Virus record (IMG/VR): IMGVR_UViG_3300046453_000173
Location: 1 to 39,962 of that record
Reading direction: 5' to 3' (one strand)
Source: a virus
Length of the DNA: 39,962 nt
In this document: positions 2,636 through 39,962 of the stretch, in pieces
Layout of the letters: each line of letters starts with the position of its first letter
Position numbering within the stretch: position 1 is the stretch's first letter
Made by a program: the position numbers and the translations under genes
Notes under the pieces: generated by a model
What the model was told of the DNA's origin: nothing
What the model saw: only the letters and a program-made list of their open reading frames with translations
The model's database searches: none

Positions 2636-3316
2636 CTACTCATCCCCCTCGACTTTGAACCCTGCGGCTCGGATTTGTTCTTTGGCGTGTTCAACACCCT
2701 TCACCCAGGCTTCCAGCTGTTCATCACTGCACCAGTGAGCCATGATGGCTACTGACTCGAAGTCGCAATTTTGCAACTGCACCGGCGTAGCCAGCCGCTT
2801 TTCTGCCTCAATCGCGCGCTGCTCCATTTTTCGGCTGTGGTCTACCCAGTCATCGCGCTCTCGCTCAGTATCTGTCAGGATTCTTTCCAGGTCAGCGATG
2901 CGCTTATCCTTCGCTTCCAGCTCTTCTTTCAGTTCGCGAATGCGTTCGAATGCAGTGGCATTGGCATCTTTCCACAGCTCAGTAATGTTATTCAGCGCTT
3001 GGTCTTTCGCTTCCAGCTCTGCCAGCAGTGCCACTATTTTGGCTTGCTGAACATTCCACGCTAACCCGACGTTTACACACTCTTCGGGGCCTTCCTCTCC
3101 GCAGTGAGGGCAAATAGCGTCATCGTAATCGCCTGTGTCTGCAATCTGGCCGCCGCCGTCTGCCTGCTGACTCGGATAGACCGCGCCACACTCTTGACAC
3201 TCAATGACGAAATAGCCCCCGGTGTTGTTATCAGTGACAAAACCAGCGGCAACAGCTTCACGGGTTTTCTTGTCTGCGGGAATCGTGGCTTTCAGTTCGC
3301 TCAGCTTATTGTCCAT
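2636..3316 (-). CDS. Zinc-ribbon plus coiled-coil phage protein, Ea22-like
   Basis: This 226-residue protein has two CxxC pairs (CQECGAVYP near residue 40 and CPHCGEEGP near residue 70) that would form a zinc ribbon. A long charged coiled coil follows (about 95-170, with ELEAKDQ and ELEAKDKRIADLERIL repeats). The C-terminal part contains WCSDEQLEAWVKGVEHAKEQ. This modular build is typical of Ead/Ea22-type accessory proteins. The ATG at 3316 overlaps the preceding TGA (TGATG). A TTG one codon upstream is less likely. Confidence 0.7.
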   Translation of the reverse strand: MDNKLSELKATIPADKKTREAVAAGFVTDNNTGGYFVIECQECGAVYPSQQADGGGQIADTGDYDDAICPHCGEEGPEECVNVGLAWNVQQAKIVALLAELEAKDQALNNITELWKDANATAFERIRELKEELEAKDKRIADLERILTDTERERDDWVDHSRKMEQRAIEAEKRLATPVQLQNCDFESVAIMAHWCSDEQLEAWVKGVEHAKEQIRAAGFKVEGDE

Positions 3317-3576
3317 CAAATACCCCCCGCGGCTGTTTTCAGCTTCTTCTTCATCACGTCTAATGGTGTTTGGTAATCAGCGCATAGTTCTTCGAAATAC
3401 GGGCCATACTCTGTTGCTGCGTCCAGAAGAGCTGAGGCCTCATCGTTGGTAAGCATCTCAGCATGCAGGTCCGTAAACGCTACAACACAAAGCTTGCCGC
3501 CAAGGATTTCAGTGCCAGCACCACACGCTGGCTCTTTTCCGTCTTCGAACTCAACAACGAACGTGTACCTACTCAT
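3316..3576 (-). CDS. Small phage protein of unknown function
   Basis: This 86-residue acidic protein (MSRYTFVVEFEDGKEPACGAG at the start) appears to have an N-terminal beta-strand part and a C-terminal helical part (DEASALLDAATEYGPYFEELC). It is coupled to the upstream gene by a four-base overlap and to the downstream gene by TGATG. I do not recognise the family, and no motif suggests an activity. Confidence 0.65.
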   Translation of the reverse strand: MSRYTFVVEFEDGKEPACGAGTEILGGKLCVVAFTDLHAEMLTNDEASALLDAATEYGPYFEELCADYQTPLDVMKKKLKTAAGGI

Positions 3577-3779
3577 AGAGCTTTCTCCGCTTCTGGCTCA
3601 TCCCATACCGCGTAAGCGTGCTCTTCAACTTCTACGCTGCCAGTGTTGCTGCACTTGTTGCATGTGATTTTGTCGCCCTCATACAAGCGGAAGCCGCAGC
3701 CTTTTTCTGTCTCAACCTTGTGCGTTTCGTTGTCGCATTTAGGGCATGCGCCAAGCCATGAAATATTAAGAGTTTTCAT
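3573..3779 (-). CDS. Small zinc-ribbon phage protein
   Basis: This 68-residue protein has two metal-binding pairs, CPKC near residue 12 and CNKC near residue 40, separated by about 25 residues. That is the layout of a single zinc ribbon, with an acidic tail. Such small proteins are common in lambdoid left operons and may contact nucleic acid or another protein. It overlaps both neighbours by four bases. The function is not known. Confidence 0.7.
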   Translation of the reverse strand: MKTLNISWLGACPKCDNETHKVETEKGCGFRLYEGDKITCNKCSNTGSVEVEEHAYAVWDEPEAEKAL

Positions 3780-3991
3780 TGCGCTTTCTCCTGGGCTTCA
3801 GCCCACAACGCCTGAATGACCTTTGCCGAACGCCGCTGGCTGCGGGATGGCTTAACGTGCTGCCATACGTGTGGATAGTTGGCGCTGTAAACCTGCCAGC
3901 GCCGGTTGCTGATTCGGAAACAGTCTTCTGGGCCAGGGGCCGACACGCAAAGCAATGCTCTGGCCGCTCTGTTGCTCTTACGCTTAGCCAT
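3776..3991 (-). CDS. Small basic phage protein
   Basis: This 71-residue protein is strongly basic. It begins MAKRKSNRAARALLC and continues FRISNRRWQVYSANYPHVWQHVKPSRSQRRSAKVIQALW. The ATG at 3991 is preceded by a strong AGGAGG six bases upstream. The longer frame starting at 4024 lacks such a site. Its ATGGCTAA start overlaps the end of the frame that continues from the interrupted nuclease-like gene upstream. A nucleic-acid-binding role is plausible from charge only. Confidence 0.65.
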   Translation of the reverse strand: MAKRKSNRAARALLCVSAPGPEDCFRISNRRWQVYSANYPHVWQHVKPSRSQRRSAKVIQALWAEAQEKAQ

Positions 3992-4142
3992 GCTGGACCT
4001 CCTGCGGTTTTGGAAATCCGTCATAAACTTCTGACAGGTGCCCGCGTATCTGCATGCGGCGTAGAGCGCTGTACATGTAATCGCACTCAGCCTGCTTGTT
4101 GGCTTGAAACGGTTTTCGTGAATACCAAACTGTGTTACCTGG
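3984..4142 (-). other. In-frame continuation of the nuclease-like gene beyond the amber codon
   Basis: After the TAG at 4143-4145 the same frame reads on without a stop for 52 codons and ends at a TAA (3984). The reading includes NTVWYSRKPFQANKQAECDY and YMYSALRRMQIRGHLSEVYD. It looks like real protein and has no good start of its own. It ends with the eight-base overlap ATGGCTAA with the next gene, exactly like the junction at 1712-1719. It is best read as the lost C-terminus of a 174-residue protein. Confidence 0.6.
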
Positions 4143-4508
4143 CTAGCCGTGAACCTTATGGACTCTGCCGCCTTTTACGTGAAGCAAGCCCCATCCAGGA
4201 GGCAAATCAGACGCTTCTATAAATCCAGGTTCGGCCATGAAAAACCGCCAGTCACCCATTCCTTGATTTGGCATTCTTCTGAAAGATTTTTTCTTATCAG
4301 CCAGGAAGTCAGCGCGTGAGCACTTAACCTCAATTAGGCATGAGGCGAGACTTCGGAATCCGATCGCGTCCGGTTGCTCTCCGGTAGAAACAGCAGCAAC
4401 AAACCGATCATGGAATGCCACTTTGAATCCGTTATTGCGCAGGAACCGTTCGGCAATCAGACAAAGTTCGCTGTGTGTCAGTGCTGGCTTCAGTTCATTT
4501 GCTGGCAT
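4143..4508 (-). CDS. PD-(D/E)XK nuclease-like phage protein, ended by an in-frame amber
   Basis: The 121-residue product has the outline of a PD-(D/E)XK fold: an N-terminal helix with E20, then D47 in PDAIGF, then E60-V-K62 in LIEVKCSRADFL, followed by WRFFMAEPGFI and DLPPGWGLLHV. Proteins of this type are seen in phages and resemble small repair- or restriction-type nuclease domains. The ATG at 4508 has GGAGG six bases upstream. A second ATG lies one codon earlier. The frame stops at a TAG (4143) but stays open for 52 more codons up to the next gene's start, so the gene is probably truncated here. Confidence 0.65.
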   Translation of the reverse strand: MPANELKPALTHSELCLIAERFLRNNGFKVAFHDRFVAAVSTGEQPDAIGFRSLASCLIEVKCSRADFLADKKKSFRRMPNQGMGDWRFFMAEPGFIEASDLPPGWGLLHVKGGRVHKVHG

Positions 4509-5270
4509 CATGCACCTCCAATTCGCTGCCACCGAAAATACGACGGCGTGCAACTTCGACATATTTCTGTTCTTTCTCGATACCGATGAATCGGCGTCCA
4601 GTCGCTGAGCAAGCAACGCCAGCGGTGCCGCTACCCATCGTGAAATCCAGCACCACATCACCGGGATTGCTGTACGTCTCGATCAGGTAGCGAACCAAGC
4701 CAATAGGCTTTTGCGTTGGGTGAAAATTCCCTTTTTGTTTATCGCTCGAGAAGAACTGAACATCACGGGGGTACCGCTTTGTTGAGTCATATTCAGTGAG
4801 CGTTAAGGCCTTGCCGTATACGTCAGAATTCACCGATTTTCGCTTTGATGTCTTACGCTGGTGACCATCGGTAAGCTGCGGGTTATAGGTGGGCAGGCTA
4901 CGATAAAACACTAGGATGTTTTCATGGGCACGTAGTGGTTGCTTCTTGGCGTTTAAGAACCCAGTAGCGTTGCCTTTTTCCCAAATCCATTCCGTCTTCC
5001 AATGCCGGATATTGCTGTTGACCAGAACAGAGGTATACGGCTGGCACTGAACAGCACGATGGCGGCGTTTGGTTTGGCGATTCGGTGCAAGTGTTCCCAC
5101 ATCAGTTCGAGGTCAAGAGCTGAGTCCCAGGCGCATTGCGTAGTGCCATATGGCACATCAGCGCACACCATATCAACAGAGCCATCAGCGATATGTTTCA
5201 TAGCCTCCATGCAGTCTGCGTGAATGAGCTGAGCGTTTTCACTTGCCGGCATCACTGGGCGCTCTTTCAT
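4495..5270 (-). pseudogene. Beta-class DNA methyltransferase, frameshifted
   Basis: Two overlapping frames together make one N4/N6-type DNA methyltransferase of about 258 residues. The first (5270 leftwards) has motif IV as ADVPYGTTQCAWD and runs to IVLFSA. The second carries QPYTSVLVNSNIRHWKTEWIW, HPTQKP and motif I as LDFTMGSGTAG. This order, catalytic motif before the SAM motif, is the beta class. The frames join if one base is restored near 5041-5046, where GCCAG would become GCCCAG. Without it, the first frame ends at 4953 after a short false tail. Its ATGA start overlap with the upstream gene shows it once belonged to the coupled operon. Sequencing error is the alternative. Confidence 0.85.
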
Positions 5271-11137: not shown

Positions 11138-11291
11138 AATGGATTGTCGTGACAGTCACGGCGTAATTGTCCGTGTGATTGGTGTCGATCAGGTCAATCA
11201 GCGTGTCATTTTCCGGCGCCCAGGCTACCCGTATGACTGCGCGTGCCCGCGCAGAGACTTTGGTACCAAATTCAAGAAGGTGCAGGAATGA
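11109..11291 (+). CDS. DUF4222 family protein
   Basis: This 60-residue protein matches the DUF4222 pattern of phage proteins: a DxHG segment (CRDSHGVIVRVIGVD), then VNQRVIFRRPGYPYDCACP and a basic end (FGTKFKKVQE). GGGGG precedes the ATG by five bases. The TGA overlaps the start of the replication gene (ATGA), so it probably belongs to the replication operon. Its role is unknown. Confidence 0.8.
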   Translation: MENEVIVPFEMDCRDSHGVIVRVIGVDQVNQRVIFRRPGYPYDCACPRRDFGTKFKKVQE

Positions 11292-12346
11292 GCGTCTTAA
11301 TGCAGTTACTGGATCGCCCAATAGCGTTTCAGCCTTCTTTTGTTGGGCTGGGTGCTGGCGTAACCGGGGCTGTACTGCTTTCACAGTTGGTGTATTGGCA
11401 AAACCGCATGGATGGTTGGTTCTACAAAACTCAGGCTGAGCTGACGACTGAAACCGGTCTGTCACGCTATGAGCAGGAAGGCGCCCGTAAAAAGTTGGTT
11501 ACCGCTGGCGTACTGGAAGAAGAGCGCAGAGGGGTACCGGCAAAACTCTACTTCCGTGTTAACAAAAACCAGCTGGAAGCCCTGCTGATTCAGTATGCGG
11601 AAAACCAGCAATCCAGTATGCGGAAATCCCGCATTCAAGAATGCGACAAACCAGCAGACAAGAATGCGGAAATTCCGCCGACAAGTCTGCAGGAAACCCC
11701 CGAGCCAGATGGGGGAAATCCCGCATTCATTCATACAGGAGATTACACAGAGAATACTCCAGAGATTACTGCAGAGAAAAAACCTGTACGTCAGCCGGCT
11801 CCGCCAGCCGACCCGCAAGAGGATTCTCTCAAAATCGATTACAAGGCCGTGCAGGAAATCTTCCACACCACGCTGCCTGAACTGCCAGTCGTTTTAAAAA
11901 TCACGGACGAACGCCGCAAGAAACTTCGCAAACTCTGGGCTGACTACGAACTGAACCTCGAAAAGTGGGGTGCTTACCTGCGGTTCATCTCGAAAAAGTG
12001 CCGCTGGATGCTGGAAGACCGCCCAGACACCAACACTGGCAAGACGTGGCGCAAAAAGGACTTCGACTACCTGATCACCGAGAAATGCTATCTCAAGGTC
12101 AAGGAGGAGCGGGCGAATGACATGCCGAAAGTTCAGAAGCTTGATAGCGCTGCCCGTGAGGACGCCTACACCCGCCTGGTATCTCAACGCCGTAAACCAC
12201 AAAACGAGGTGGAAACACTGGCGAGGGAAATGGCCGGATCTTTGGGGCGCATGAGTGATTACGATGCCCGCCGGGCATGGACTGGTATCTGGGCGCAAGC
12301 AGTGGCGAAGGCCAGCGAGAACGACTTAGCGAGGTTGGCACCATGA
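11288..12346 (+). CDS. Replication initiation protein, lambda O analogue
   Basis: This 352-residue protein has an N-terminal winged-helix part (about residues 1-95: LLSQLVYWQNRMDGWFYKTQ, ELTTETGLSRYEQEGARKKL, RRGVPAKLYFRV). A low-complexity linker (about 100-180) and a C-terminal domain with KWGAYLRFISKKCRWML follow. This layout matches phage initiators that bind iterons and recruit the host helicase loader. The iterons lie in the linker-coding part of the gene. The ATG at 11288 overlaps the previous stop. The next gene starts in its last codons (ATGA). Confidence 0.8.
   Translation: MSVLMQLLDRPIAFQPSFVGLGAGVTGAVLLSQLVYWQNRMDGWFYKTQAELTTETGLSRYEQEGARKKLVTAGVLEEERRGVPAKLYFRVNKNQLEALLIQYAENQQSSMRKSRIQECDKPADKNAEIPPTSLQETPEPDGGNPAFIHTGDYTENTPEITAEKKPVRQPAPPADPQEDSLKIDYKAVQEIFHTTLPELPVVLKITDERRKKLRKLWADYELNLEKWGAYLRFISKKCRWMLEDRPDTNTGKTWRKKDFDYLITEKCYLKVKEERANDMPKVQKLDSAAREDAYTRLVSQRRKPQNEVETLAREMAGSLGRMSDYDARRAWTGIWAQAVAKASENDLARLAP
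11591..11735. other. Probable phage replication origin (iterons)
   Basis: At least four related blocks occur within the O-like gene: CAGTATGCGGAAAACC (11591), CAGTATGCGGAAATCCCGC (11614), AAGAATGCGACAAACC (11638) and AAGAATGCGGAAATTCCGC (11660). An inverted copy GGGGGAAATCCCGCATTC starts at 11711. Several are themselves palindromic around AAAT. Lambda ori has the same position inside gene O. Confidence 0.6.
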
Positions 12347-39428: not shown

Positions 39429-39448
39429 TGCCGGGACGGACCCCGGCA
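39429..39448 (+). terminator. Strong hairpin after the spike gene
   Basis: TGCCGGG, loop ACGGAC and CCCGGCA, six bases after the stop codon. The T tract is poor (AAACTATCTTTCTTT follows), so efficiency is uncertain. Confidence 0.6.
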
Positions 39449-39501: not shown

Positions 39502-39547
39502 TTCACATCGGTTTTTTCTTACGCTTATACTGTATGTGTATACAGTA
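39502..39547 (+). promoter_or_regulatory. LexA-controlled promoter
   Basis: TTCACA (39502-39507) and TATACT (39526-39531) are separated by 18 bases. TACTGTATGTGTATACAGTA (39528-39547) is a near-perfect LexA box (CTG-N10-CAG) that overlaps the -10. The umuD-like gene starts 23 bases downstream. Confidence 0.9.
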
Positions 39548-39569
39548 TTTGATTGTGAGGTAAAACACT

Positions 39570-39962
39570 ATGCCATCAAAATTTGCCAGCCCAGCGGCGG
39601 ACTACGTCGAGAAACGCCTAAGCCTTGATGAGATCTGCATAATGCGGCCGCATGCGACGTATTTCATGCGCGCAGCAGGCCAAGCGATGGCAGTGGGTAT
39701 CCACGATGGAGCTTTGCTCGTTATCGATTCATCCGTAACTCCGGTGCATGGCAGCATCATCATTGTTGACGTCGGCGGTGAGCATGTTCTGCGCCGGCTT
39801 CGGCTGTACCCATATCGGGCGTTGGAATACGTGGACGGATCCGGAATGGAAACCATGCTGGGTAACGAAGACGACGGAGAGGGGGTGCAAGTGTTTGGTG
39901 TTGTGACATGGGCTGCGAACGACATGCGGTCGTGCGAGTTCGATGACGTGCCTGTCATATAA
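39570..39962 (+). CDS. umuD: UmuD'-like protein without a catalytic dyad
   Basis: This 130-residue protein aligns with the processed form of UmuD: FASPAADYVEKRLSLDEI at the start, ATYFMRAAG, DGALLVIDSSVTPVHG, RRLRLYP and VFGVV. UmuD' binds UmuC to make error-prone polymerase V. The N-terminal arm with the cleavage site is absent, so the protein begins a few residues before the UmuD' start. The catalytic Ser (UmuD S60) is A39 in GQAM, and the Lys (K97) is R75 in VLRRLRL, so it cannot self-cleave and would need no RecA. GAGG precedes the ATG. The window ends at its stop, so a following umuC cannot be seen. Confidence 0.92.
   Translation: MPSKFASPAADYVEKRLSLDEICIMRPHATYFMRAAGQAMAVGIHDGALLVIDSSVTPVHGSIIIVDVGGEHVLRRLRLYPYRALEYVDGSGMETMLGNEDDGEGVQVFGVVTWAANDMRSCEFDDVPVI

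Follow-up and report, generated by a model that had tools for sequence, protein, structure and literature searches.

The window analysed here is the complete IMG/VR record IMGVR_UViG_3300046453_000173, a stretch of 39,962 bases in which both ends are gene boundaries and which looks like a trimmed provirus. Its last gene, on the plus strand at 39570-39962, is a humD-type gene encoding a UmuD'-like protein of 130 amino acids without an N-terminal arm, and the stop codon of this gene closes the record. The protein starts MPSKFASPAADYVEKR and aligns with UmuD', the portion of UmuD that remains after cleavage. Since an in-frame stop codon (TAA, 39561-39563, plus strand) lies two codons 5' of the start, the arm cannot be encoded. 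The first-pass annotation of this DNA had described a UmuD-like frame starting about where UmuD' starts, and both the alignment to solved UmuD' and the upstream stop codon bear this out. At the opposite end of the record lies an ORF on the minus strand (1-1086) that was identified from its sequence as integrase-like; in the circular order of relatives the integrase adjoins humD, and the phage pAEv1818 shows the same neighbours. From this relative we infer that the prophage host is probably Aeromonas. Between the tail-fibre gene and humD, a GC hairpin (GCCGGGACGGACCCCGGC, 39430-39447, plus strand) was picked out by eye as a possible terminator and, again by eye, is mostly preserved in the relatives L008-L011; it is absent from the calls of a terminator scan. 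Elsewhere in the window, an imperfect tandem repeat of 23 bases is located at 11588-11725 within ORF 11243-12346.

The gene is a phage humD, a kind of gene already known from HumD of phage P1. The protein scores 137.9 bits with the HumD equivalog model NF051876 of NCBIfam (cut-off 120), covering model positions 3-129 of 129, and 85.8 with the autoproteolytic UmuD model PRK10276, which is below the cut-off of 110; Pfam Peptidase_S24 gives 44.6 bits. The best Foldseek matches of the predicted structure (mean pLDDT 72.8) are UmuD and UmuD' (8gmt, 1umu and 1ay9, E about 1e-8). P1 HumD had been named earlier as a precedent, and the choice was sound, with 52% identity over 97% of the protein and the NF051876 cut-off passed. 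The same gene type is present in N15, phiKO2, HK140 and HK639, often with tail-fibre genes on one side and the integrase or attP on the other. The idea that HumD belongs to the chromosome was rejected, since none of the 369 gammaproteobacterial genomes contained a match above the cut-off; HumD is therefore chiefly a gene of mobile elements. One HumD-level match was found in G002, one of three further genomes that were searched directly. In a tree computed without the tail, a single branch (100/99) separates all armed, dyad-bearing UmuDs from the arm-less proteins, the deep forks among the latter being unresolved.

Upstream of the gene, a mismatch scan revealed a LexA box (TACTGTATGTGTATACAGTA, 39528-39547) with one mismatch to TACTGTATATNNATACAGTA, the chance expectation being a mean of 0.02 matches at three or fewer mismatches. 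The box overlaps the -10 element TATACT of a sigma-70-like promoter (TTCACA-18-TATACT, 39502-39531, plus strand, 10 of 12 matches), confirming the near-perfect LexA box over a -10 region that had been noted before. By itself the promoter is weak evidence, because shuffles yield 0.7 such sites in the region. All 28 Aeromonas-clade loci (18 versions) have the box at the same place; the outer bases were fixed in this search pattern, so that only presence and position are informative. The box is retained in L010 and L011, where the adjacent upstream DNA aligns poorly, and LexA sites are annotated at P1 humD and in phiKO2. A second CTGT-N8-ACAG site, located inside a coding region (5015-5030), is probably a chance occurrence, since about 0.5 are expected randomly in the window.

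The Ser-Lys dyad of UmuD is missing from the window protein. Aligned pairwise with solved UmuD', the protein has A39 (codon GCG, 39684-39686, plus strand) opposite Ser60 and R75 (codon CGC, 39792-39794, plus strand) opposite Lys97; in the multiple alignment Q38 instead of A39 is opposite Ser60. The Ser60 loop lacks one residue, which leaves two possible positions for the gap, and neither brings a Ser under Ser60. Thus, of the two substitutions proposed from the first look at the sequence, the loss of both dyad residues and Arg75 stand, and the residue replacing Ser60 is Ala39 or Gln38 depending on where the gap is placed. A read error at codon 39 or 75, the objection raised at the time, is excluded because L008-L011, with 97-99% protein identity to the window, share these residues despite 48-58 synonymous differences. 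The CI-like repressor of the same phage (9185-9913, minus strand), which has an S24 domain, served as an internal control; it keeps the GDSM and Lys motifs, so that the dyad loss is particular to the UmuD'-like protein.

To place this loss in the family we used a survey of 147 rows, many of them near-identical, with 112 arm-less and 35 armed proteins; the reference UmuD sequence used here matches the chains of the solved structures. Ser and Lys are both present in all 35 armed proteins. The arm-less rows of full size, 106 in number, are divided at the aligned pair into 44 with Ser/Lys, which are P1-like and L017-like copies, 30 with Gln/Arg from the clade of the window, 10 each with Thr/Lys and Thr/Arg, and 12 with other pairs; the alignment of the loop behind these counts may be off by one residue. 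Of 18 HumD representatives sharing less than 80% identity, two have Ser and Lys and nine have neither. The alignments thus indicate that arm loss is family-wide, and that decay of the dyad is gradual and complete in the branch of the window and in several others. Loss of Ser60 in every arm-less protein is ruled out, since Ser and Lys are aligned in the P1-like and L017-like groups. The expectation that the window protein differs from P1 HumD held, as P1 HumD may keep Ser and Lys in the alignment used; to present the double loss as special to the window phage was an overstatement, given the nine representatives without either residue. An arm-less protein offers nothing to cut, so the loss of the dyad may be simple relaxation and not a strategy. 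That the state is settled, as suggested earlier, is borne out by the strong purifying selection.

Between the window and L008-L011, the 48-58 synonymous differences are accompanied by 1-5 nonsynonymous ones. The dN/dS ratios are 0.003-0.015 against the window, 0.01-0.03 among L008-L011 and 0.03-0.1 in the pAEv1818-like sister clade; dS is high, which makes these ratios rough, and their direction is plain. This substitution pattern shows that the humD-type gene of the window is under strong purifying selection. The comparison with L008, with 54 synonymous changes and one nonsynonymous change, is unusual for an accessory phage gene. The arm, the catalytic residues and umuC are all missing, and broken copies occur in other phages, as would be expected if the gene were what is left of a phage umuDC operon in decay; however, the intact ORF, the conserved box and the excess of synonymous differences make such a remnant extremely improbable, and the substitution pattern rules out a pseudogene. 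The copies that appear broken are those in BTP1, APC_JM3.2 and Huey (L040-L042): the BTP1 copy is a two-piece match on a strand without an annotated gene, and the other two end early and lose the tail. The window adds a well-supported, probably Aeromonas, branch to HumD that has lost both catalytic residues and is stably maintained in this state under strong selection.

At their C-terminus the arm-less proteins carry a tail that is, on average, better conserved than the remaining sequence. This tail has the consensus NDxRSxEFDDxPV(I/M) and corresponds in the window protein, by alignment, to residues 117-130 (NDMRSCEFDDVPVI, 39918-39959, plus strand), of which the final nine, from residue 122, are predicted to be disordered. 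In the survey the tail closes 102 of 112 arm-less rows versus none of the 35 armed rows, a fraction that is biased upward because one of the two peptide patterns of the large scan contains the ND of the tail; the tblastn phage list is free of this bias. The exceptions are L021 and L069 with broken ends, L043, then L085, which has the tail plus one residue, and six rows of a mini class, two of which were excluded from the count by hand, though they end in DDDIPIM. Four tail residues, N117, D118, D125 and D126, do not vary among the 18 representatives, and R120, E123, F124 and P128 are each shared by 17 of them. Entropy averages 0.80 bits over the tail as against 1.35 bits over the body, in which the former Ser loop belongs to the most variable stretches. 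Where cellular UmuDs match the HumD model, the match mostly ends at positions 114-120 of 129. What is new here, at the level of sequence comparison, is the conserved tail of the arm-less HumD family, which is absent from the armed UmuDs examined, together with the way in which the dyad has decayed across the family. The first-pass annotation had missed this tail, which sets the arm-less proteins apart from the armed ones. Its conservation points to a function specific to the lineage, of which we found no description in the searchable literature.

The mini class mentioned above is a very diverged lineage of proteins of 105-109 amino acids (PHROG 3469; L027-L031, L047 and L159-L238) that is entirely without the active-site hairpin and keeps the SPAADYVE start. 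In many members a LexA box precedes the gene by about 40 bases. An acidic-x-Pro-hydrophobic tip, such as VSDDDIPIM or TDTDDRPVI, is found in 26 of 34 representatives; this lineage thus keeps the tip although most of the body has changed.

A partner gene for the window protein was searched for next to humD and in the whole window. No UmuC match was found in the 39,962 bases, and no umuC directly follows humD in pAEv1818, where the integrase is next, or in L010. The UmuC search set included the samAB stretch of a Salmonella plasmid (L048), which is outside all counts and trees. Within the HumD family the absence of a umuC operon has one exception, L074 (IMGVR_UViG_3300011710_000026, 2995-4648), where seven bases separate a tailed, arm-less HumD-type gene from the intact umuC directly behind it; the encoded UmuC has 422 amino acids and is 85% identical to that of a Klebsiella phage. 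Read from its sequence, this pair is a pol V operon for which no cleavage of UmuD is required. For the window phage, a host partner is in keeping with reports of Aeromonas strains that carry umuD and umuC (PMC10674900, PMC12196135).

The best reading of the locus, which we consider probable, is that of a LexA-repressed, ready-made UmuD' that borrows the UmuC of the host. In its favour are the full-length match to the HumD model, the LexA box retained throughout the Aeromonas clade, the low dN/dS and the structural matches to UmuD and UmuD'. In the lysogen, host LexA would repress humD, as suggested by the box and the promoter, and SOS induction would immediately give a dimer of the UmuD' type, as expected from homology. 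RecA-assisted self-cleavage does not come into play, since the sequence contains neither arm nor catalytic residues. HumD would then pair with host UmuC, so that pol V could form before any UmuD has been processed; the resulting polymerase would assist translesion replication where the DNA of the phage or the host is damaged. Pol V (UmuD'2C) of E. coli does not assemble until about an hour after SOS induction (PMC11253446), a delay that a ready-made UmuD' would shorten. UmuC as the partner is supported by L074, with its HumD-type gene next to an intact umuC. P1 HumD was reported to be functional and to replace UmuD' in mutagenesis (McLenigan 1999, as cited in PMC7092418), and the annotation of the P1 record states that HumD complements UmuD'. 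By analogy, the window protein might raise mutagenesis through pol V. Against the reading speak the lack of a umuC in the window and directly behind humD in pAEv1818 and L010, and the consideration that a host already making UmuD' would leave the phage with no obvious gain.

The same observations bear on two further explanations. HumD might be a dominant blocker of host pol V that traps UmuC or UmuD in non-productive complexes; the altered active-site loop, a tail foreign to UmuD' and the lack of a UmuC encoded alongside would fit, but P1 HumD is reported to be active in mutagenesis and the L074 operon has an intact umuC, so that we regard a blocker as very unlikely. Somewhat better placed, though still unlikely, is a role in tuning SOS control, in which HumD would bind RecA filaments or heterodimerise with host UmuD and dampen RecA-assisted cleavage or recombination; prophage induction or host recovery would then be tuned and HumD would not be a pol V subunit. 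UmuD has indeed been seen on the RecA filament (8gmt), umuC is usually not adjacent, and in phiKO2 and HK140 a dinI-like gene, encoding a RecA-filament protein, is located near the UmuD'-like gene; the coupling of the HumD type with umuC in L074 and the reported replacement of UmuD' by P1 HumD in mutagenesis speak against such a role. The arrangement in these two phages (L006 and L007) is divergent, with the dinI-like gene adjoining the UmuD'-like gene or one gene away.

A ready-made UmuD' that uses host UmuC leaves the tail to be accounted for, and here the single-stranded DNA-binding protein SSB offers a comparison. The last residues of E. coli SSB, MDFDDDIPF, form a tip on which many repair proteins dock (PMC7913777), and SSB is strongly needed for the processivity of pol V (PMC11253446). 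Both tip and tail are located at the extreme C-terminus, are disordered, in HumD by prediction, and contain an aromatic residue with an acidic pair, a Pro and a hydrophobic end. However, SSB is not homologous to HumD, and in HumD the Pro is one place further in and the last residue is I, M or L instead of Phe; the window protein ends in P-V-I, with Pro at -3, and has no terminal I-P-F. Examples of HumD tails that resemble the SSB tip are MEFDDNPVM (L072) and DDDIPIM (L030). None of the other 743 distinct open-frame C-termini in the DNA of the relatives shows the tail pattern, a comparison in which the pattern was defined post hoc and many frames are non-genes. No SSB-tip mimic in UmuD or HumD was found in the searchable literature.

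Our hypothesis, which we consider likely, is that the tail serves as a docking peptide. The disordered acidic C-terminus would bind a protein of replication or repair, perhaps one that usually binds the SSB tip. Mimicry of the SSB tip itself is possible but rather doubtful, and equally tentative is the combined proposal that, with the arm lost and an SSB-like tip gained, HumD2-UmuC or HumD alone docks on SSB-binding proteins or on pol V itself. If true, docking would bring pol V to SSB-coated gaps or displace host repair factors there, and HumD would be a rewired pol V subunit, beyond an early-made UmuD'. A docking tip could also explain why phages keep their own UmuD' beside that of the host.

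Compared with known systems, the window protein is closest in kind to P1 HumD, which is likewise UmuD'-sized and armless, lacks a cognate umuC, carries the same tail and has its LexA site at a similar distance; P1 HumD has Ser at the Ser60 place and Lys at the Lys97 place in the alignment used, whereas the window protein has neither. The nearest named relative, the UmuD-like gp11 of pAEv1818, is 75% identical and shows the same residue losses, and its gene lies at the same place as in the window, with the tail-fibre gene before it and the integrase after it; the LexA box has one half-site base changed there and the tail-fibre gene of that phage differs from that of the window. With E. coli UmuD' the window protein shares the predicted fold and the N-terminal part. 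Full-length E. coli UmuD has the arm, the Ser-Lys dyad and umuC as operon partner but no tail, and the window protein is the reverse in each of these features.
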